From: Haloarcula sp. H-GB4
Lineage (GTDB): Archaea; Halobacteriota; Halobacteria; Halobacteriales; Haloarculaceae
Length of the DNA: 64,000 bases
Assembly: GCF_030848575.1 (NCBI RefSeq)
Contig: NZ_JAVDDX010000001.1
Location: 1 to 64,000, forward strand
Direction: 5' to 3'
In this document: piece by piece, positions 20,731-43,492 of the stretch
Layout of the letters: each line of letters starts with the position of its first letter
Position numbering within the stretch: position 1 is the first letter of the stretch
Notes under the pieces: model-generated
Seen by the model: only the letters and a program-made list of their open reading frames with translations
What the model was told of the DNA's origin: nothing
Database searches by the model: none
Position numbers and translations under genes: made by a program

Positions 20731-20763
20731 CTTGGATTAACACAACCAAAATTGTTTTACGCG
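20731..20763 (+). promoter_or_regulatory. Cobalamin-locus operator/promoter before cbiT
   Basis: ACAA-CCAAAA-TTGT at 20742-20755 is one of five copies of the dyad ACAA-N6-TTGT in this locus. The surrounding 33 bases match those before cbiH at 25070-25102 at 27 of 33 positions, including TTGTTTTA-N-GCG. TTTTA probably is the TATA-like element, so a bound protein would block the promoter. TAATCC-N6-GGATTA (20722-20739) overlaps its left edge. Confidence 0.7.
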
Positions 20764-24182: not shown

Positions 24183-24947
24183 ATGACAACACTACTCGAA
24201 GACCAGGTGGCGGTCGTTACGGGCGGCGCAAGCGGGTTCGGCCGGGCCATCTGCCGGCGGTACGCGGAGCACGGCGCAGACGTTATTGTTGCGGACCGAC
24301 AGCAGGACCCTCGCGAGGGCGGCGAACCGACCCACGAACTGGTCGAAGCCGAGACCGACCGGACGGCGCATTTCGTCGAGTGTGACGTAACCAACCCCGA
24401 CGATCTGGAGGTGGCCGTCGCCGCGGCCGAGGAACTAGGCGGTATCGACATCATGGTCAACAATGCCGGCATTTCCGAGATAGCGGACTTCTACGAGACC
24501 ACGGAGGAGGACTACGACCGTCTGATGGACGTGAACACCAAGGGCGTGTTTTTCGGTGCGCAGGTCGCGACTGAGGCGATGCGGGAGAACGGCGGCGGCA
24601 CCGTCATCAATATGTCTAGCTCCGGCGGCATCCGCGGGACCGGCTTGTTGGTCAACTACTGCACTTCGAAAGGCGCAGTCCGCCTGTTCACTTACGCGCT
24701 TGCGGACCGCCTGAGCAACTACGATATCCGGGTCAACGCCATCCATCCGGGCTACAGCAAGACCCAGATGTTCGAGGACGAGCGCATTGACGACACGACC
24801 AAGATGATGCTGAAAGAACTCATTCCCTCGGGCCGCTTCGGCGAACCCGAGGAGATTGCCGACGTGGCGACGTTCCTCGCCAGCGATATGGCCTCCTACG
24901 TCAACGGTGAGAGCGTTGTAGTCGATGGGGGACTGACGAACACCTGA
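24183..24947 (+). CDS. Short-chain dehydrogenase/reductase
   Basis: A 254-residue NAD(P)H-dependent oxidoreductase of the classical SDR family. The Rossmann glycine motif is VVTGGASGFGRAI at residues 12-24. NNAGISE follows, the catalytic Ser is in INMSSSGG, and Tyr-x3-Lys is in YCTSKGA. The usual ending is ASYVNGESVVVDGGLTNT. Its substrate cannot be told. It sits inside the cobalamin locus, between cbiG and cbiH, but has no ACAA-N6-TTGT site upstream. It is separated from both by over 150 bases and so is likely transcribed on its own. An AT-rich TTATTTATTATG is its probable promoter. Confidence 0.85.
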   Translation: MTTLLEDQVAVVTGGASGFGRAICRRYAEHGADVIVADRQQDPREGGEPTHELVEAETDRTAHFVECDVTNPDDLEVAVAAAEELGGIDIMVNNAGISEIADFYETTEEDYDRLMDVNTKGVFFGAQVATEAMRENGGGTVINMSSSGGIRGTGLLVNYCTSKGAVRLFTYALADRLSNYDIRVNAIHPGYSKTQMFEDERIDDTTKMMLKELIPSGRFGEPEEIADVATFLASDMASYVNGESVVVDGGLTNT

Positions 24948-25069: not shown

Positions 25070-25102
25070 CTTGGACTAGTACAAGCACAATTGTTTTATG
25101 CG
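25070..25102 (+). promoter_or_regulatory. Cobalamin-locus operator/promoter before cbiH
   Basis: ACAA-GCACAA-TTGT at 25081-25094 lies in a 33-bp block that matches the cbiT promoter block at 27 of 33 positions. TTGTTTTA-N-GCG is conserved and the A/T core is probably the TATA-like box. The long operon from cbiH to the beta-propeller gene follows. Confidence 0.7.
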
Positions 25103-26098: not shown

Positions 26099-27187
26099 AT
26101 GAGTACTGACAACACCACTGACGCAAGTACCGAGACAGAATCGAAGTGCGGCGCAAGCGAGGCGCGTAGCGCCTCGGAGACAGAGAGCAAGGCGGAGACA
26201 GAGACCGATACCGCCTCCAAGTGCGGCGCAAGCTCGGCGAGTTCATCGACGGAGACAACGCCGGACACAGGCGACGACAGCGCCTCGAAGTGTGGCGCGT
26301 CATCATCGTCCGAATCGTCGTCCTCGTCCAGCAGTAGTTCCTGCGGCGCGTCCTCGTCCAGTGAGTCGGACGAAGAGGAAGAAGTCGGTGCGACCGTTGA
26401 CGACTTCGACGCGGAACCGGGCCAGCTCATCGCTGTCGGCCTCGGTCCTGGGCAGCCGGAAGGGATGACCGCCCGCGCCCGCTCCGCGCTACTGGACGCC
26501 GAACACATCGTGGGCTACACGACCTACGTCGAACTGCTCCCCGACGAAATCACCGACGGAGCCGACGACATCTACAACACGCCGATGTGCGGCGAGGTGT
26601 CCCGGACCGAGGAAGCCATCGACCGTGCGCTTGCGGGCAACGACGTGGCCATCATCGGCAGCGGCGACCCGAACGTGTACGCGCTGGCCGGCCTCGCACT
26701 GGAGATCATCGAATCCAAGGGCGCGACGGCGACGATGCTCGACTTCGACGTGGTTCCGGGCGTCCCGGCCGCCCAGTCCTGTGCGGCCCGCGTCGGCGCG
26801 CCGCTGGTCAACGACACCGTCTCCATCTCGCTGTCGGACCACCTCACCGATATGCCGACCATCGAGTCGCGACTCCACGCCGTCGCCAAGGAGGGCTTCA
26901 CCATCACCATCTACAACCCGTGGAGCCGCAAGCGCCGGGACAACTACGAGAAGTGCTGTGAGATCCTGCTGGAACACCGTGACCCCGAGACGCCGGTCGG
27001 TGTTGTCCACGCCGCCGGCCGCGAGGACGAACAAGTCGAAATCATGGAACTCGGCGAACTGCCCGAACTCGGGGAAACCGACCTCGTCGACATGACCACC
27101 ACACTGCTCGTGGGCAACGAGGACACCTACGTCTGGGACGACCGGATGGTGACCCCGCGGGGCTACGAGACTAAGTACGACTACTAA
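26099..27187 (+). CDS. cbiH: CbiH-type methyltransferase with Cys-Gly-Ala-Ser repeat tail (copy 2)
   Basis: A 362-residue protein in two parts. Residues 1-100 are low complexity, rich in Ser, Thr and Glu, with four CGAS motifs: C17, C42, C65 and C82, the first three preceded by SK. Residues 105-362 are a normal precorrin-3B C17-methyltransferase domain: LIAVGLGPGQPEGMTARARS, IIGSGDPNVYALAGLAL (AdoMet site), VPGVPAAQSCAARVGAPLVN, then TISLSDHLTDMP-like text (SISLSDHLTDM). The tail is unusual for the family and could hold a metal or an Fe-S cluster; inference only. The ferredoxin gene starts at the last base of its stop, pointing to joint expression. Confidence 0.87.
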   Translation: MSTDNTTDASTETESKCGASEARSASETESKAETETDTASKCGASSASSSTETTPDTGDDSASKCGASSSSESSSSSSSSSCGASSSSESDEEEEVGATVDDFDAEPGQLIAVGLGPGQPEGMTARARSALLDAEHIVGYTTYVELLPDEITDGADDIYNTPMCGEVSRTEEAIDRALAGNDVAIIGSGDPNVYALAGLALEIIESKGATATMLDFDVVPGVPAAQSCAARVGAPLVNDTVSISLSDHLTDMPTIESRLHAVAKEGFTITIYNPWSRKRRDNYEKCCEILLEHRDPETPVGVVHAAGREDEQVEIMELGELPELGETDLVDMTTTLLVGNEDTYVWDDRMVTPRGYETKYDY

Positions 27188-27459
27188 TGTACCGAATCAC
27201 TATCGACCGCGACGCCTGCGACGGGGTCTTCGCCTGCCTCGTCCGCGATGACCGCTTCGTTGAGGACAGCGAGGGCCTGGCGGCCATCGAGACGGACGAT
27301 CAGGCGGCGATCGAAGCCACCTTCGACGACGACCGGCGGGACGACGCCGAGCAGGCCGCCGCGGCCTGTCCGCTGGACGCGATTCACGTGGAATCTGTCG
27401 AGGAGGACGCTGGAGCCGTTGACGTACCGGCCACCGACCGCGAGGAGGTCCAGCCATGA
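27187..27459 (+). CDS. Small [3Fe-4S]-type ferredoxin of the cobalamin operon
   Basis: A 90-residue acidic electron carrier. The N-terminal cluster motif is C11-x5-C17 (RDACDGVFACLV) and the last ligand is C61-P (AAAACPLDAI). A C-x5-C ... C-P pattern without the central Cys is that of three-iron ferredoxins or of [4Fe-4S] relatives with one non-Cys ligand, as seen with P450 partners. It is squeezed between cbiH and the LAGLIDADG-like gene with overlapping ends (ATGA at 27456-27459). A role as electron donor to a corrin-pathway step or to cobalt reduction is inferred. Confidence 0.8.
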   Translation: MYRITIDRDACDGVFACLVRDDRFVEDSEGLAAIETDDQAAIEATFDDDRRDDAEQAAAACPLDAIHVESVEEDAGAVDVPATDREEVQP

Positions 27460-28115
27460 GCGTCGAAACCGGTGCACCGAACGATATGCTCGCAGCGCAC
27501 CCCGAAACGGCGTACTTCTGGGGCCGGGTTGCCGGCGACGGCGAGTGTGAGGACGGCTGTATCACTGTTCGGACGAACGACGAGACGGCCGCCCGGCGGC
27601 TTGCCTCCATCGCCGGTGCGGAGCGGGCCGACCGCCGCATTGTCGAGCGTGCGTATGCCCACGACACTTCGATTACCCGGCAGGAGGAGGAGTTCACGGT
27701 GCAGGTCGTCGGCGGGCTCGCCGACCGCGCCAGCGCCGCACTTGGGCTCCCGTTTGACGGCGATTCGGGCGGCTACCGCTTCGACGCGCTGGCTGACTAC
27801 GACCGCCCGCTCCTCCGCGGCCTGCTTGAAGGCTGTGGCACGGTGTGTTTCAAGTCCGATGACGAGGCGGTCGGTATCTCCTTTGTCCATGAGGACGAAC
27901 GACTCCTCCGGACGATCCAGACGCTGCTCGACCGCTGTCCGGTGGATGCGCCGTATGACGACCTCTCGGAGACGTCGTCGGGCTACTGGTTCGGCGTGGA
28001 CGACGATGCGGCACCTGCTCTCGGTGACTGGCTGTACGAGGGCAGCGAGGAGACGGGGCTGTTTGCACCGAGTCGGCGGCGCAAGCTCCGGAAAAGCATC
28101 GAACGAGTCCGATGA
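27456..28115 (+). CDS. LAGLIDADG-like protein of the cobalamin operon (domesticated endonuclease fold?)
   Basis: A 219-residue protein of unknown function that I compare to LAGLIDADG homing endonucleases. Motif 1 is YFWGRVAGDGEC (residues 20-31), motif 2 is LLRGLLEGCGTV (119-130), about 100 residues apart as in two-motif enzymes. After each comes the usual strand pattern: CITVRTNDETAARRLASIAG after the first, VGISFVHEDERLLRTIQTLL after the second. D28 keeps the metal acid of motif 1, but the second Asp is Cys127, so cleavage is doubtful. It is not an intein or intron ORF: it is a free-standing gene with stop/start overlaps to ferredoxin and CbiX on both sides. A DNA-binding regulator (compare bacterial WhiA, built from this fold) is an attractive inference. 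Confidence 0.6.
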   Translation: MSVETGAPNDMLAAHPETAYFWGRVAGDGECEDGCITVRTNDETAARRLASIAGAERADRRIVERAYAHDTSITRQEEEFTVQVVGGLADRASAALGLPFDGDSGGYRFDALADYDRPLLRGLLEGCGTVCFKSDDEAVGISFVHEDERLLRTIQTLLDRCPVDAPYDDLSETSSGYWFGVDDDAAPALGDWLYEGSEETGLFAPSRRRKLRKSIERVR

Positions 28116-29335
28116 GCGAAGCTATCTCCGCACCCGAGACGCTGGACGACGAAGCAGTGCTGCTTGCTGGTCATGGTTCCCGGCGCGAGAAGTCGAACGA
28201 ACAGGTCCGCGACCTTGCGGTCGAACTGGAGGGCCGACTCGGCATCCCGGTCGACGCGGCCTTTCTCGAACTGGCCGAACCGGCCATCGACGAGGCCATC
28301 GCGGGGCTGGCCAGAGCCGTCTCGGAGGTGTCGGTGGTCCACCTCTCCCTGTTTGCCGCCAGTCACGTGAAAAACGACGTGCCGCTGGCCGTCGAACAGG
28401 CACGTGAGGCCCACCCTGAACTGACCATCAACAACGGCGCACATCTCGGTGTCCACCCGGCCCTGCTGGACCTGCTGGATGACCGCGCGGCGGCCGTTGA
28501 GGCCGAACTCGGCGTCGACCGCGAGGAAGACGACGTGGCCGCCGTCGTCTGCGCCCGTGGCTCCAGCGACCCAGACGCCAACGCCGACGTACACAAGCTC
28601 GCCCGGCTGCTGTACGAGGGCCGCGAGTTCTCGCGGGTCGAGGCGTCGTTCATCGGCGTTACCGAGCCGTTGCTCGATGACACGCTACACGACATCGCCA
28701 AGACACGGCCCGACGCGGTCGTCGTCATCCCGTACATGCTCGGTGACGGCGTGCTGACCGGCCGCATCAAGGACGGCGCACGCGAGTTCGACGAGGAGTA
28801 CCCCTACGTCGACGCCGCACCGGGCGAACCGCTCGGAACGGATACCCGCTTGCTGGATGTGCTGGGTGACCGCTGGCAGGAAGCAAGAACGGGGAGCGTC
28901 GAGATGTCCTGTGACACCTGCAAGTACAAGGTGGAACTCGACGGCTACGAGGAGGATCAGGGCGGCGCTCGCGCGATGCTCCGGGCGCTGACCCATCAGG
29001 CCGAACACGCCGACCGCGAGAACGTCGACGATGACCCTCACGTCCACGACGCCCCGGAGAAACACGTCGCCGTCTGTACGAACCAGACCTGCGCTCAGGA
29101 CGGCGCGCCGGCAGTCCTCGAACGGCTGCGCCAGGCCGCCCGCGACAGCGACCAGTGCGACGCCCGCATCACGCGGTCGTCGTGTCTCGGTCGCTGTGGC
29201 GAGGGGCCGATGGTCGCCGTCTACCCCGACGGCGTCTGGTACGGCGGCGTCGAAGACGAGGACGCCGCCGAGATTGTCTCCTCACATCTGGACCGCGACC
29301 GCATTGTAAGCGAACTCGTCGACCAGACGCTTTGA
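28112..29335 (+). CDS. cbiX: CbiX sirohydrochlorin cobaltochelatase fused to a [2Fe-2S] thioredoxin-like ferredoxin
   Basis: It inserts Co2+ into sirohydrochlorin, opening the early-cobalt branch. 407 residues. The N-terminal chelatase half has VLLAGHGSRREKSNEQVRDL with the metal His, then VVHLSLFAASHVKNDVPLAV. The second half-domain has VVCARGSSDPDANADVHKLA and VVVIPYMLGDGVLTGRIKD. A C-x2-C linker (MSCDTCKYKV) follows near residue 265. The last 100 residues are a thioredoxin-like ferredoxin: VAVCTNQTCAQDGAPAVLER and SSCLGRCGEGPMVAVYPDGV, the four cluster Cys. The fusion suggests redox control of cobalt insertion. It overlaps the LAGLIDADG-like gene by four bases. Confidence 0.9.
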   Translation: MSEAISAPETLDDEAVLLAGHGSRREKSNEQVRDLAVELEGRLGIPVDAAFLELAEPAIDEAIAGLARAVSEVSVVHLSLFAASHVKNDVPLAVEQAREAHPELTINNGAHLGVHPALLDLLDDRAAAVEAELGVDREEDDVAAVVCARGSSDPDANADVHKLARLLYEGREFSRVEASFIGVTEPLLDDTLHDIAKTRPDAVVVIPYMLGDGVLTGRIKDGAREFDEEYPYVDAAPGEPLGTDTRLLDVLGDRWQEARTGSVEMSCDTCKYKVELDGYEEDQGGARAMLRALTHQAEHADRENVDDDPHVHDAPEKHVAVCTNQTCAQDGAPAVLERLRQAARDSDQCDARITRSSCLGRCGEGPMVAVYPDGVWYGGVEDEDAAEIVSSHLDRDRIVSELVDQTL

Positions 29336-29361: not shown

Positions 29362-29733
29362 ATGAGCTGCTACGAAATCGAGGCCCTCCGACTGGGTCTC
29401 ATGAACGTTCTCGGCACCGAAGACGACCACGCGCGCCAGCACGCGGAACAGGAGCTGGAGGGCCACATGACCGGCCCGATAAAGGCCCTTGCGGGCGCGA
29501 AGACGCTCGCCGCTATCGAGCGCCACCTCGACGCCGCGCTCGTGGATCTCGAAGAAGAGATCGCCGCAACCCCCGAAGACGACCCCGAGTACGACTACCT
29601 CCGGGGCCGACTCGTCGCTGTCCGCGACGCTGAGCGGGCGGTGTCGCGCATCACCATGCAGGGCGAGGATGTCCTCGCTGGGCTCGGTGAGGCCCACGAC
29701 GTGCTTCACGAGGCTTTCCCGATCGATGAGTAG
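29362..29733 (+). CDS. DUF3209 family protein of the cobalamin operon
   Basis: A 123-residue soluble helical protein. The start is ATG 29362 (MSCYEIEALRLGLMNVLGTE); the frame runs further left but overlaps cbiX. It is full of helices (ARQHAEQELEGHMTGPIKAL, AALVDLEEEIAAT) with His31-like and Cys3 residues that might touch metal. DUF3209 proteins occur next to cobalt chelatase genes, so a chaperone or cobalt-handling role is possible, but I know of no demonstrated function. Its stop overlaps the beta-propeller gene. Confidence 0.75.
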   Translation: MSCYEIEALRLGLMNVLGTEDDHARQHAEQELEGHMTGPIKALAGAKTLAAIERHLDAALVDLEEEIAATPEDDPEYDYLRGRLVAVRDAERAVSRITMQGEDVLAGLGEAHDVLHEAFPIDE

Positions 29734-30991
29734 CCAGCGCGCCCCGACTGCAGATCTCGGGGACGTAGCACCGGCCCGTTCGCGCCATCAGGGCCGCCGC
29801 TCGGCGGTCACGCTGACCAATGGCCTCGCAGTCGTCGGCACCGCCGACGGGGGCCTGCAGGTGTTCGACGTGTCGGCAGACTCCAGCCCGCCACACCGGC
29901 GCTGGCAGTACGATACGGATGGCGAACCAAGCGTCGTCGCGGCGGTACCCTTCGACGACGGCGTCGTCGTTGGCGAACGCAGCGTCCGCGGCGAGATCCG
30001 CTGTCACGATGCCGATGGCGACCTGCGATGGCAGTACGAAACCCGGACAGACCTGGGTGACCCACAGCAGGACACACGGTTTCTGCTTCCCTTCGTCGCC
30101 AGCCTCGCCACTGACGGTGACCGTCTCTACGCCGCTGCCAGACGGTACGAACGCCGAACCGACGATGACGGGAATGATCTCCGCCACTTCGAGAGCCTCG
30201 TCTATGCCTTTGCACCCGACGGCACTGTCGACTGGACCTACCAGACCGACGGTTCCCCCATCTCGATCGACGCCGACGGGAACCGCGTTGCTGTCGCGTA
30301 CAACCGATGTCCCGGCGACCACCAGCACGGCCTCGTCGTTCTTGACGCCGACGACGGCGACCCGCGCTGGATGTGGGACCCCGGGACCGACGGCCAGCGC
30401 CGCGTCGGCGACGTTGCGCTGCTGGCTGACGGCGCTGTCGTCTCCAGTCACGGCGATTACCGCGGCTACCGGCTCGACAGCGGCGGCCGAGAGTGCTGGC
30501 GTGTTCCACTGGCGACGCCGACCGACGTGGCCGGTGACACCGTCTACGCGTACCCGAACCACGTCCACGCGACGGACGACGGCGCGGTGTTCGTCACCGG
30601 CAACACGTATCCAGAGGACGGTCGTGAGACCGACGCCCGTCACCCGGACGAGCACACCGCCGTTGGTGTCTCACCGGACGGTGACCGCCGCTGGGACGCG
30701 CCCGTGGGCGGCTTCGCCAGCGGGCTGGGCACCGACGGCTCGTTGCTGGCTGTTCCCGGCGCGCAGAACTTCCGGGACCGCGATGCCGACGACCACGCGC
30801 TTCGACTGTTCGATGTCGTTGACGGTCCCGTCGACACGTTGGATACGGATGGCGTCGTGACGGCGGCCGCAGTCTCTAACGGGACCGCTGTTGCTGTCGA
30901 GGAACCGGTCGTCTACCACGATGAGGGTCATGAGCGTGGTGCGTACCGGTTGCATCGAATCGAGACATCCGTCGCTGATGCGTCGACGTAG
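29726..30991 (+). CDS. PQQ-like beta-propeller protein
   Basis: A 421-residue protein from ATG 29726 (MSSQRAPTADLGDVAPARSR). It shows repeated blades of the PQQ/BamB type: GLAVVGTADGGLQVFDVS, GVVVGERSVRGEIRCHDADG, RLYAAARRYERRT, GTVDWTYQTDGSPIS, HGLVVLDADDGDPRWMWDPG and AVVSSHGDYRGYRLDSGGRE. No signal peptide or lipobox is visible, so it should be cytoplasmic, which is odd for this family. It is the last gene of the cbiH-led operon and overlaps DUF3209 by eight bases. Possible roles: scaffold or ligand sensor; none is demonstrated. Confidence 0.75.
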   Translation: MSSQRAPTADLGDVAPARSRHQGRRSAVTLTNGLAVVGTADGGLQVFDVSADSSPPHRRWQYDTDGEPSVVAAVPFDDGVVVGERSVRGEIRCHDADGDLRWQYETRTDLGDPQQDTRFLLPFVASLATDGDRLYAAARRYERRTDDDGNDLRHFESLVYAFAPDGTVDWTYQTDGSPISIDADGNRVAVAYNRCPGDHQHGLVVLDADDGDPRWMWDPGTDGQRRVGDVALLADGAVVSSHGDYRGYRLDSGGRECWRVPLATPTDVAGDTVYAYPNHVHATDDGAVFVTGNTYPEDGRETDARHPDEHTAVGVSPDGDRRWDAPVGGFASGLGTDGSLLAVPGAQNFRDRDADDHALRLFDVVDGPVDTLDTDGVVTAAAVSNGTAVAVEEPVVYHDEGHERGAYRLHRIETSVADAST

Positions 30992-32804: not shown

Positions 32805-34952
32805 CTACTGGTCGCCGGCGACGGCATTGACGCGCTCGGCGGTCAACGCGTCCAATGAGACAACTGACGCGTCCGTTTCCTCTGCAACAAGGTCGAGCAA
32901 TCCAGCGCGCCCCGCGTCGCCAGCATTCACCACAACGGTCCGGTTGGCTTCCTCACCGAGCGTTCGCGCCGCGGTTCTGGTCGCCGCGACCGGACTCCCG
33001 TCGGCGGTGTTCGCCCGGCCGTCAGTCACGACAACGACGACGCCGGCGTCCGGGTCCGCCCGGTCGAGTACCTCGCAGGCGGCCGTCAGCCCATCCGGCA
33101 GCGGCGTCCGGTCGCCGGTCGGGAGGTCCTTCAGGTGCCGGGCCGCCAGCGAGACACTGTCGGTCGGCGGGAGGACCACGTCCGCGCCCTCGCCAGCGAA
33201 GGTGACGAACGCGACCTGATCGCGGGCCTGATAGGCGTCTTTCAGTAGTTCCAGCACGGTACCCTTCGCGGCTTTCATTGCTGGGCGCATTGACGCGCTC
33301 GCGTCGACGGCAAACACGACCAGCGTTTCGGCGTCGCCTGCGCGAACGGACTTCCGGAGATCTCGTGACTCGACGCGACCACTCCCACGGCTGGCCGCCG
33401 CTCGGACCGACGCCGCGGCGTCGACCTCGTCGTCGCGGCCGGCGCGCTCGGTGCGGACCGTTGCGCCGCGTTTCGTTCCCGTTGCGCTCGCACGGCCGCT
33501 CGCGCTCCCGCCGTCCGTGTCGACCGACGGGGCGTCCACGTCGGGTGCGCCGCTGTCGCCGACTGCGGCACGGGACTGGCCCGGCAGCAGCGGGGTCGCG
33601 TTTTCGGGGTCGGACTCCCCCTGCTCGTCACCATCGTCCCCTGCCTCTCCCTCGCCGTCGCTGGCTTCAGACTCCTGCTGCTCGCCGTCGCTGTCGGCTG
33701 AAGCGGGCGTCGGCTGCTGGCCGCGCTCGTCTGACTCGCTGTCGCCGTCCTCAGTGGATTGCTCCTCGTCGTCTGGCTGCTGTTCCTGTTGTTCGTTCTC
33801 ATCTCCATTGCCCGCAGAATCATTCCCGTCATCTGCCGGTTCGCCGCCGGCCGCTTCTTCCTCGTCGTCCGCGTCGCCTTCCTCACCACCGTGCTCTCCG
33901 TCTTCGGCGGACTCCTCCTCAGATTCGCCTTCCTCGTCCTCGAAGTGATCGTCGAGCACGTCGTCCACGTCCGGTGCGTCCTCAAAGGGCCGAGAGGTGA
34001 GCCGGTGGGGGAGTGCGAACTCGGCGGCGCGTTCGATATCCGATTCCAGGACTGTCGTTCGCCCGTCCAGCGCGGCAAACGTCCGGGCTGCCCGCGCTGT
34101 GGCGATGTCGCCGCGATGGCCGTCGAGACCTGCGTCTCGGCAGAGTTCGGCGATCTGTTTTCGGAACTCGCGGGCAAGGTCGACCTCTGGGAGCAGGTCG
34201 CGGGCGGTCCGCAGCCGCTCGCCCGGACTGCGGTCGGGTTCGGTCCGTGTCTCCTCGTCGCCGTCTTCCCCGAGCGCTTGGTCGATGATGGCGACGCGGT
34301 CGTCTATGTCTTCGCAGGCGCTGACCTCGGTCTGGAGGGCGAAACGGTCCCGCAACTGCGGACGGAGGTCGCCCTCCTCGGGGTTCATCGTCCCGACGAG
34401 CGTGAACTCGGCGGGGTGGGTGACGGTGACGCCGTCGCGCTCGACCCGGTTCTGGCCGCTTGCGGCCGCGTCGAGCAGCACGTCCACGAGGTGGTCGTCC
34501 AGCAGGTTTACCTCGTCGACGTAGAGGATGCCGCGGTTCGCGCGGGCGAGCAGGCCGGGGTCGAACTCGTGGTCGCCGTCGAGCGCGTCGGCCACCGACA
34601 GCGTCCCCACGACCCGGTCCCGGGTCGCGCCGAGTGGAAGCGTCACCAGCGGAACCGGCCGCGTCTCGACAGGTGGGTCCGTACGCGCTCGACAGTCTTC
34701 GCATTGCTCGTCAGGGCGGTCGGGCGGACAGCCGTAGGGACAGTCCGCGACCGCGCGTTGCTCGGGCAGCAGATCGGCGAGCGCGCGCACCGCTGTCGAC
34801 TTCGCCGTTCCCTTCTCGCCGCGGACCAGCAAGCCGTCCAGGTCGTCGTCCGTCGCGACGGCCAGCAGGCCGTCCTTGAGGTCGCGCTGGCCGACGACGG
34901 CCGCGAACGTCGGTCCCTGCGAAGCTTTTTTGCCCGCGCCGAATACAACCAT
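32805..34952 (-). CDS. ChlI/ChlD-like AAA+ and VWA chelatase subunit
   Basis: A 715-residue fusion of the two ATPase-side subunits of a Mg/Co-chelatase, the probable motor for CobN. The AAA+ domain has Walker A GEKGTAKST (45-53), IDPxLL-like DPGLLARANRGILYVDEVNL and GTMNPEEGDLRPQLRDRFAL. A four-Cys insert C71-x3-C75-x8-C84-x2-C87 may bind zinc. Residues about 330-460 are a very acidic Glu/Asp/Gln linker. The VWA domain from about 535 has a MIDAS motif DASASM near 547, then VVVVVTDGRANTADGSP. It is divergent from cobN across 35 bases. The operator dyad lies over its start codon. Confidence 0.9.
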   Translation of the reverse strand: MVVFGAGKKASQGPTFAAVVGQRDLKDGLLAVATDDDLDGLLVRGEKGTAKSTAVRALADLLPEQRAVADCPYGCPPDRPDEQCEDCRARTDPPVETRPVPLVTLPLGATRDRVVGTLSVADALDGDHEFDPGLLARANRGILYVDEVNLLDDHLVDVLLDAAASGQNRVERDGVTVTHPAEFTLVGTMNPEEGDLRPQLRDRFALQTEVSACEDIDDRVAIIDQALGEDGDEETRTEPDRSPGERLRTARDLLPEVDLAREFRKQIAELCRDAGLDGHRGDIATARAARTFAALDGRTTVLESDIERAAEFALPHRLTSRPFEDAPDVDDVLDDHFEDEEGESEEESAEDGEHGGEEGDADDEEEAAGGEPADDGNDSAGNGDENEQQEQQPDDEEQSTEDGDSESDERGQQPTPASADSDGEQQESEASDGEGEAGDDGDEQGESDPENATPLLPGQSRAAVGDSGAPDVDAPSVDTDGGSASGRASATGTKRGATVRTERAGRDDEVDAAASVRAAASRGSGRVESRDLRKSVRAGDAETLVVFAVDASASMRPAMKAAKGTVLELLKDAYQARDQVAFVTFAGEGADVVLPPTDSVSLAARHLKDLPTGDRTPLPDGLTAACEVLDRADPDAGVVVVVTDGRANTADGSPVAATRTAARTLGEEANRTVVVNAGDAGRAGLLDLVAEETDASVVSLDALTAERVNAVAGDQ

Positions 34953-34958
34953 ACTTGT
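34945..34958. promoter_or_regulatory. Cobalamin-locus operator between cobN and the ChlID-like gene
   Basis: ACAA-CCATAC-TTGT. The start codon of the minus-strand gene (34950-34952) lies in its six-base spacer, so protein bound here would block both the divergent promoters. cobN starts 29 bases to the right. GAGATTTAATAACG between them gives TATA-like sequence. Confidence 0.68.
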
Positions 34959-34987
34959 ATTAGTGCAAACGGAGATTTAATAACGTT

Positions 34988-42677: not shown

Positions 42678-43451
42678 CTAATCGCCCTCGCCGTCGGTTG
42701 CCATCGGCCGGTTTGTCGCGGCCAGCGTCGCCTCGAAGGTCTGTGGTGTGCTCGTGTCGGCCATCGTCCGCGCTGTCTCGACGGCGGTCGCGACGGCCTC
42801 AGTGACGAGCGGGTGGTCATCTAGCGTGTCAGTGTAGGCGAGCCCGCCCCTATCGAGGTCGAGTTTGGCGGGGATCTGCGACTCGGTCGCGTCGGTTGGC
42901 GCAAGAAAGAGCGGCACGGCGACGGCGTGGTCGTGGGCGAGGTTGTACCTGACACATTCGACAGCGGGGTTCTGGAGCAGATAGCACGGTTCCACCTCGC
43001 CGAAGGCTGAGCGCTCGCGCAGGCGCTCGGCGTGGTACTCCGTCACCTGACGCTGATACGGCTTGCCGCTGGAGCCGAAGGCGACGAGCGCGACGGAGGA
43101 ATCGGGGGCCTCCGGGACTGCCGCGGCGGCACGGTCACGGATCGCTTCGGTCAGTAGCGGGCTGCGACCGACTGGTTCACAGTAGTGTGTTTCGGCGTCA
43201 ATTTCGTCGAGTGCCGCCGGCACGTCAGTCACCGTGGTGTGGTCGTGCGCGACGGTCATCGGCAGCGCGAATACGCGGTCGGCGTCGATGGCTACCAGTT
43301 CGTCGCGTAACTCCCGACGAGGTTCGTGGTCGTAGGTCAGCACCGTTACGTCGGTTGCTACGCCGCGCTCGCGCAGACGGCGAGCGTGTGTTTCGTAGGG
43401 CGTAGCGCGTGACGTGTCCCGACCGATGAGCAGGAGTGTGTCGTGTGGCAT
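42678..43451 (-). CDS. cbiX: Divergent CbiX-like chelatase protein
   Basis: A 257-residue protein in two CbiX-like halves. The first begins MPHDTLLLIGRDTSRATPYE, where the family normally has LLLVGHGSR, so one metal His is lost; FALPMTVAHDHTTVTDVPAA retains other His. The second half has LVAFGSSGKPYQRQVTEYHA and AVAVPLFLAPTDATESQIP. It may be a chelatase with altered metal preference or a cobalt-binding accessory. It has the best operator of the locus immediately upstream, so it belongs to the regulon. Confidence 0.75.
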   Translation of the reverse strand: MPHDTLLLIGRDTSRATPYETHARRLRERGVATDVTVLTYDHEPRRELRDELVAIDADRVFALPMTVAHDHTTVTDVPAALDEIDAETHYCEPVGRSPLLTEAIRDRAAAAVPEAPDSSVALVAFGSSGKPYQRQVTEYHAERLRERSAFGEVEPCYLLQNPAVECVRYNLAHDHAVAVPLFLAPTDATESQIPAKLDLDRGGLAYTDTLDDHPLVTEAVATAVETARTMADTSTPQTFEATLAATNRPMATDGEGD

Positions 43452-43464
43452 TGGTAGCTCCCAA

Positions 43465-43492
43465 CGCTAAAACAACTCAACTTGTTTTAGCG
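43465..43492 (-). promoter_or_regulatory. Perfect cobalamin-locus operator before the second cbiX
   Basis: CGCTAAAACAA (43465-43475) and TTGTTTTAGCG (43482-43492) are a perfect 11-bp inverted repeat with a six-base spacer. It contains the shared ACAA-N6-TTGT at 43472-43485. It starts 13 bases upstream of the ATG of the minus-strand cbiX gene. Confidence 0.75.

Follow-up and report, generated by a model that had tools for sequence, protein, structure and literature searches.

To our knowledge, few LAGLIDADG endonucleases have been described as domesticated, including WhiA and yeast HO, and these proteins act on DNA. In monomeric LAGLIDADG enzymes, an acidic residue is required in each motif. 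The archaeal intron-encoded homing endonucleases I-Tsp061I and I-DmoI, which carry these acids and cut DNA, are the closest in fold to the haloarchaeal protein analysed here and share with it a similar size and the two motifs. Here, however, the catalytic acids have been lost and the gene has a fixed place in an operon. The bacterial sporulation regulator WhiA (DUF199) is likewise chromosomally fixed, and its monomeric LAGLIDADG domain is degenerate and lacks the catalytic acids. In WhiA, DNA is bound by a C-terminal helix-turn-helix (HTH), and the LAGLIDADG domain gives no footprint by itself (PMC3781837). In contrast, the haloarchaeal protein comprises the LAGLIDADG domain alone, belongs to a different clade, is bound to an operon and has a cysteine in motif 2.

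The protein is encoded in a window of 64,000 nucleotides from Haloarcula sp. H-GB4 (contig NZ_JAVDDX010000001.1, positions 1 to 64,000), the whole stretch of DNA that was analysed. Its gene (27456..28115, forward strand; 219 aa) is the orthologue of HVO_B0055 by operon position, which lies between HVO_B0056 and the cbiX1 gene HVO_B0054 according to the accessible part of a published account (PMC8305020). The same part reports two gaps in the haloarchaeal cobalamin pathway (EC 2.1.1.195 and EC 1.3.1.106) and lists HVO_B0055 with its function unassigned, giving neither a fold nor a function. The RefSeq names of the relatives are 'cobalamin biosynthesis protein' or 'hypothetical protein', and our literature search found no paper combining LAGLIDADG, haloarchaea and cobalamin. 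In the cobalamin operons of Thermus and Leptospira, CbiX is also followed by DUF3209; unlike the haloarchaeal operon, they contain CbiD and no annotated LAGLIDADG gene. Therefore, the CbiX–DUF3209 pair is older than the LAGLIDADG protein or independent of it.

Fold and motifs of the protein

The preliminary description of this DNA had proposed two LAGLIDADG-type motifs about 100 residues apart, arranged as in a monomeric homing endonuclease, with Cys127 in place of the metal Asp of the second motif. Both motifs were seen in the reading frame. Motif 1, FWGRVAGDG, covers residues 21-29 (27516..27542, forward strand) and has Asp28 in the catalytic position (27537-27539). Motif 2, LRGLLEGCG, covers residues 120-128 (27813..27839, forward strand), and the catalytic Asp position is indeed occupied by Cys127 (27834-27836). 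The distance between D28 and C127 is 99 residues.

The AlphaFold2 model, built on an alignment of 43 orthologues, had a pLDDT of 90.6 and a pTM of 0.88. It predicted two repeats of helix-strands-helix-strands-helix, in which the helices at residues 16-28 and at 109-127 each lead into strands. The LAGLIDADG fold spans residues 5-219 of the model. The Foldseek comparison gave 42 matches at E<=0.001, with LAGLIDADG proteins throughout the significant range, including I-Tsp061I (1e-7), the VMA and PI-PfuI inteins, the bI3 maturase, WhiA, I-SceI and I-DmoI. LAGLIDADG proteins also filled the significant range of the VIA comparison (VIA-align), where the Z scores were 16.3 for I-Tsp061I, 15.4 for I-DmoI and 14.4 for WhiA (8dy7 chain I). 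Both structural comparisons led to LAGLIDADG proteins and not to another fold, which agrees with the monomeric layout proposed earlier. We consider the prediction of a full monomeric LAGLIDADG fold with two domains to be sound, given the confident model. A predicted fold is now available for one of the four unassigned genes of the cobalamin pathway, in which two gaps are known.

At the level of sequence, the Pfam family LAGLIDADG_3 (PF14528) matched the window protein weakly (E 0.027; 15.2 bits, below the gathering cut-off of 22.5), which would place it formally outside the family. The profile aligns with the second domain of the haloarchaeal protein and matched 29 of the 43 orthologues at E<=0.05, with a best E of 3.6e-5. 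The NCBIfam search found no family for the protein, and phmmer and profile searches of the PDB sequences returned chance-level matches only. It is thus Pfam, the motifs and the predicted fold that link the protein to the LAGLIDADG structures. There was no Pfam HTH match in the protein and no HTH in its predicted fold. The precedent of WhiA, invoked in the preliminary description, is consequently a weak one, which holds for the degenerate LAGLIDADG domain and does not extend to the HTH through which WhiA binds DNA.

Residue 127 was cysteine in 65 of the 68 relatives, alanine in two and serine in one, the alanine and serine variants belonging to the Haloglomus clade; an acid was found in 0/68. 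Residue 28 was Asp in 48/68, the other relatives having G, S, N or A there. As no relative has an acid at position 127 and only 48 of them have Asp28, the protein is nuclease-dead as judged from its sequence. Cys131, four residues past Cys127, was invariant in all 68 relatives, together with Y20, W22, G23, H69, R121, G122, E125, G128, G140, S142, Y194, L202, R207 and K210. The basic residues conserved in this alignment were R65, R75, K/R133 and the RRRK stretch at 207-210. There were 40 invariant columns in the alignment of 43 sequences. The dN/dS values of 0.02-0.13 within and near Haloarcula indicated purifying selection and therefore a functional gene. The acidity of the protein equals that of the neighbouring operon enzymes.

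Distribution and position in the cobalamin operon

The gene was detected in 204 of the 391 sampled Halobacteria genomes, a count from which very divergent copies could be missing owing to the sensitivity of the genome search, and CbiH (TIGR01466) in 210. Both genes occurred in 202 genomes, cbiH alone in eight (G268, G318, G001, G007, G052, G128, G317 and G359), the LAGLIDADG gene alone in two with incomplete or odd loci (G316 and G339), and neither in 179. Hence, both were present in 202 of the 212 genomes holding at least one of them. DUF3209 was found in 205/391 genomes, 202 of them common with the LAGLIDADG gene, the overlaps of all these genome lists having been compared by eye. The 57 relatives taken from genome contigs all came from haloarchaeal records or archaeal MAGs. 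Beyond the class Halobacteria, no homologue rose above noise in the non-haloarchaeal genomes of a phylum sample; three non-haloarchaeal matches with E of 0.04-0.07 were judged to be due to chance.

In nearly all loci read, the gene order is cbiH2, ferredoxin, LAGLIDADG gene and cbiX. In the window, the forward strand carries cbiH2 (cobJ/cbiH; 26099..27187), the upstream neighbour in nearly all loci, a single-cluster ferredoxin (Fer4_15; HVO_B0056 orthologue; 27187..27459), and, past the LAGLIDADG gene, the cobaltochelatase gene cbiX, which encodes a C-terminal thioredoxin-like 2Fe-2S domain (28112..29335). Then follow DUF3209 (PF11483; 29362..29733), which has nearly the same genome set as the LAGLIDADG gene, and, as a further member of this accessory set, a PQQ-type beta-propeller gene (29726..30991). 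In Halobaculum plasmids, the propeller gene downstream of DUF3209 bears the annotation 'transcriptional regulator' (L149:11283-12698), a name that is doubtful.

The overlaps with the ferredoxin gene and cbiX reported earlier are both of 4 nt (ferredoxin stop at 27459, cbiX start at 28112), and this ATGA (-4) spacing recurs among the 58 loci, 49 of them having it at the ferredoxin gene and 45 at cbiX. In genome G014, the LAGLIDADG gene is present and the 160-bp gap upstream of it has no ferredoxin gene; the locus of G313 looks similar. The gene is single-copy per genome. Owing to this single copy, the near-invariant operon position and the tight co-occurrence with cbiH, the pattern of the locus differs from that of a mobile element. 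Two expectations of the preliminary description were borne out here, namely that the gene is neither an intein nor a free-standing mobile gene and that its orthologues sit, nearly always, in cobalamin operons with the cysteine retained; they were not scattered with both Asp. A whole archaeal class keeps, in a biosynthetic operon, a LAGLIDADG protein that is nuclease-dead by its sequence and has no added HTH.

Among the eight cobalamin operons without the gene, seven were minimal (cbiT-L-F-G-H1-H2, with cbiX next in five) and had no ferredoxin, DUF3209 or beta-propeller gene. The CbiX proteins adjoining the minimal operons lack the C-terminal 2Fe-2S domain, whereas nearly all operons with the LAGLIDADG gene have it. 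The CbiH2 tree separated the minimal operons from the full ones (FastTree support 0.9). In the eighth genome, G052, two cbiX genes stand in tandem, the extra copy lying in the slot of the LAGLIDADG gene after ferredoxin (L117:5203-7388) and the 2Fe-2S domain being present in the second copy only. Since the operon of G052 is nested among those bearing the LAGLIDADG gene and a second cbiX stands in its slot, the gene was probably lost there. A rule restricting the gene to aerobes was rejected, because COX1 is absent in three of the eight genomes and present in five.

The palindrome at cobalamin promoters

A palindrome at 43465-43492 had been noted as shared with the cobalamin locus and proposed to be read by the LAGLIDADG protein. 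The palindrome itself is real, and three close copies of it stand at promoters of cobalamin genes in the window. The dyad TAACACAA-N6-TTGTTTTA stands without mismatches in the cbiT promoter (20738..20759). Copies with one mismatch lie before cbiH1, at the point where the operon is split by an SDR gene (25077..25098), and in the divergent chlID/cobN promoter (34941..34962). The palindrome noted earlier corresponds to another perfect copy (43468..43489; all four on the forward strand), located 16 bp before the start of a second CbiX-domain gene (PF01903, E 5.5e-17; 42678-43451, reverse strand) outside the main operon. The search with TAANACAA-N6-TTGTNTTA gave four matches in the window at <=3 mismatches against 0.22 expected by chance, and 0/100 shuffles reached this number. 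Across the 4.19 Mb of the genome, the same four were the only sites with 0-1 mismatches, all of them at cobalamin genes. From these matches, we regard the dyad as a predicted cobalamin operator.

In most relatives (Halobacteria), the dyad is found 20-23 bp upstream of cbiT. As this would be the place of the TATA box for a leaderless transcript, part of the conservation of the dyad may reflect the core promoter. Those Haloarcula with an SDR gene between cbiG and cbiH1 have a separate dyad copy for the downstream half of the operon. Several Haloarcula genomes have this SDR-family gene (24183-24947 in the window) between the two. The Rfam search of 17000-46000 gave nothing at the gathering threshold and no known cobalamin riboswitch. 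The dyad also differs from the TrmB motif TACT-N7-8-GAGTA.

The dyad was present 22-23 bp before cbiT in all eight cobalamin-operon genomes without the LAGLIDADG gene, and each of these eight copies scored higher than all 1000 shuffled versions of the upstream region in which it lies. Copies with three mismatches were also seen at the start of chlID in four of them (L120, L122, L123 and L124). The cobalamin promoter dyad is therefore not dependent on the LAGLIDADG gene, and the factor that maintains it is something else or needs no LAGLIDADG protein. In this way, the role of the LAGLIDADG protein and the reader of the cobalamin palindrome become two separate questions. The latter now has a defined, predicted operator and phylogenetic controls in the genomes with and without the gene, and both are directly testable in Haloferax.

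Possible roles of the LAGLIDADG protein

The suggestion of the preliminary description that the protein is a DNA-binding transcription regulator reading the dyad TAANACAA-N6-TTGTTTTA appears highly improbable. It is true that the dyad is real and, at 22 bp, resembles the classical pseudo-palindromic targets of LAGLIDADG proteins, that the four best sites of the genome all belong to cobalamin genes, and that a second regulator of the cob/cbi genes has been inferred in Halobacterium, with its identity unassigned (PMC3794607). However, the persistence of the dyad at cbiT, and of near-copies at chlID, in genomes without the gene speaks against this reading, as do the absence of an HTH and the failure of the LAGLIDADG domain of WhiA to footprint alone (PMC3781837). 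The main rival explanation, which we hold to be somewhat doubtful, is that the protein binds nucleic acid elsewhere, as a regulator at an asymmetric DNA site or as an RNA-binding factor on the cbi mRNA. The ancestry of the fold lies in nucleic-acid binding, LAGLIDADG maturases bind RNA (bI3 maturase is among the fold matches), and the conserved R65, R75, K/R133 and RRRK at 207-210 would suit such a ligand. Against it, no cbiT promoter element specific to the genomes bearing the gene was seen, and the acidity of the protein is no different from that of the neighbouring enzymes. Moreover, the invariant residues that strand alternation, counted from the motif, would place on the saddle (C131, G140, S142 and V144) seem untypical of base contact.

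It is also quite unlikely that the protein fills the gap of CbiD (C1 methylation) or CbiJ (precorrin-6A reduction), as was suggested for HVO_B0052/53/55/56. CbiD and CbiJ were absent in all 61 haloarchaeal genomes tested, and both the gap and these four candidates have been described in print (PMC8305020). Nevertheless, the eight cobalamin-operon genomes without the LAGLIDADG gene also lack CbiD and CbiJ, and the protein is therefore not a general gap filler. Besides, we know of no SAM or nucleotide site in the LAGLIDADG fold for either reaction. CbiH1 was found in every operon with the 5' half read, and because the minimal operons (L118-L125) keep it in the absence of CbiD and CbiJ, CbiH1 would be a better candidate for the C1-methyltransferase (CbiD) than the LAGLIDADG protein. 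As for a decayed homing endonuclease fixed by chance, the fold and the lost catalytic residues would fit a functionless relic, but the idea is contradicted by the selection data (dN/dS 0.02-0.13), the 40 invariant columns in 43 sequences and the class-wide retention with the operon, and it can practically be dismissed.

We tentatively favour the view that this domesticated monomeric LAGLIDADG protein, dead as a nuclease, is a partner protein for ferredoxin and CbiX in cobalt or redox handling, a prediction that we rate as possible though short of probable. The protein would be kept by selection within the accessory set of the full haloarchaeal cobalamin operon, i.e., ferredoxin, the LAGLIDADG protein, CbiX fused to the 2Fe-2S domain, DUF3209 and the beta-propeller protein. 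It would be made together with ferredoxin and CbiX and act with both at the protein level. The old DNA saddle, with its small conserved residues, C127/C131 and R65/H69, may bind a partner, cobalt or a tetrapyrrole while cobalt is being inserted or in the redox step that goes with it. The partner role is suggested by the coupling to ferredoxin and CbiX, by the accessory set, by the position of C127/C131 at the old active site and by a metal-transport context in genome G021. The narrower proposal that the saddle was rebuilt to hold cobalt, tetrapyrrole or an iron-sulphur partner protein in the course of cobalamin synthesis, making the former homing endonuclease a metal or cofactor handler and not a nucleic-acid binder, is doubtful.

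Gene order and coupling denote association and not contact, and R65, R75 and R207-K210 would suit nucleic-acid binding as well. The presence of alanine or serine at position 127 in Haloglomus means that a metal site using C127 is not essential in that clade, and a cysteine-based metal site there would need other residues. The metal-transport context of G021 is that of a divergent copy (HMM E 1e-30), which lies outside the cbi operon and is flanked by two cation-efflux (CDF) genes and a rhodanese gene (L089:4445-7454).

Genome G021 also appears, as read from its sequence, to have LAGLIDADG-type intein-like insertions in an RNA polymerase A'' ORF and in a dCTP-deaminase-like ORF (L116 and L089:9362-11443). 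The insertion in RNA polymerase A'' matched the family HMM weakly (2.8e-4).
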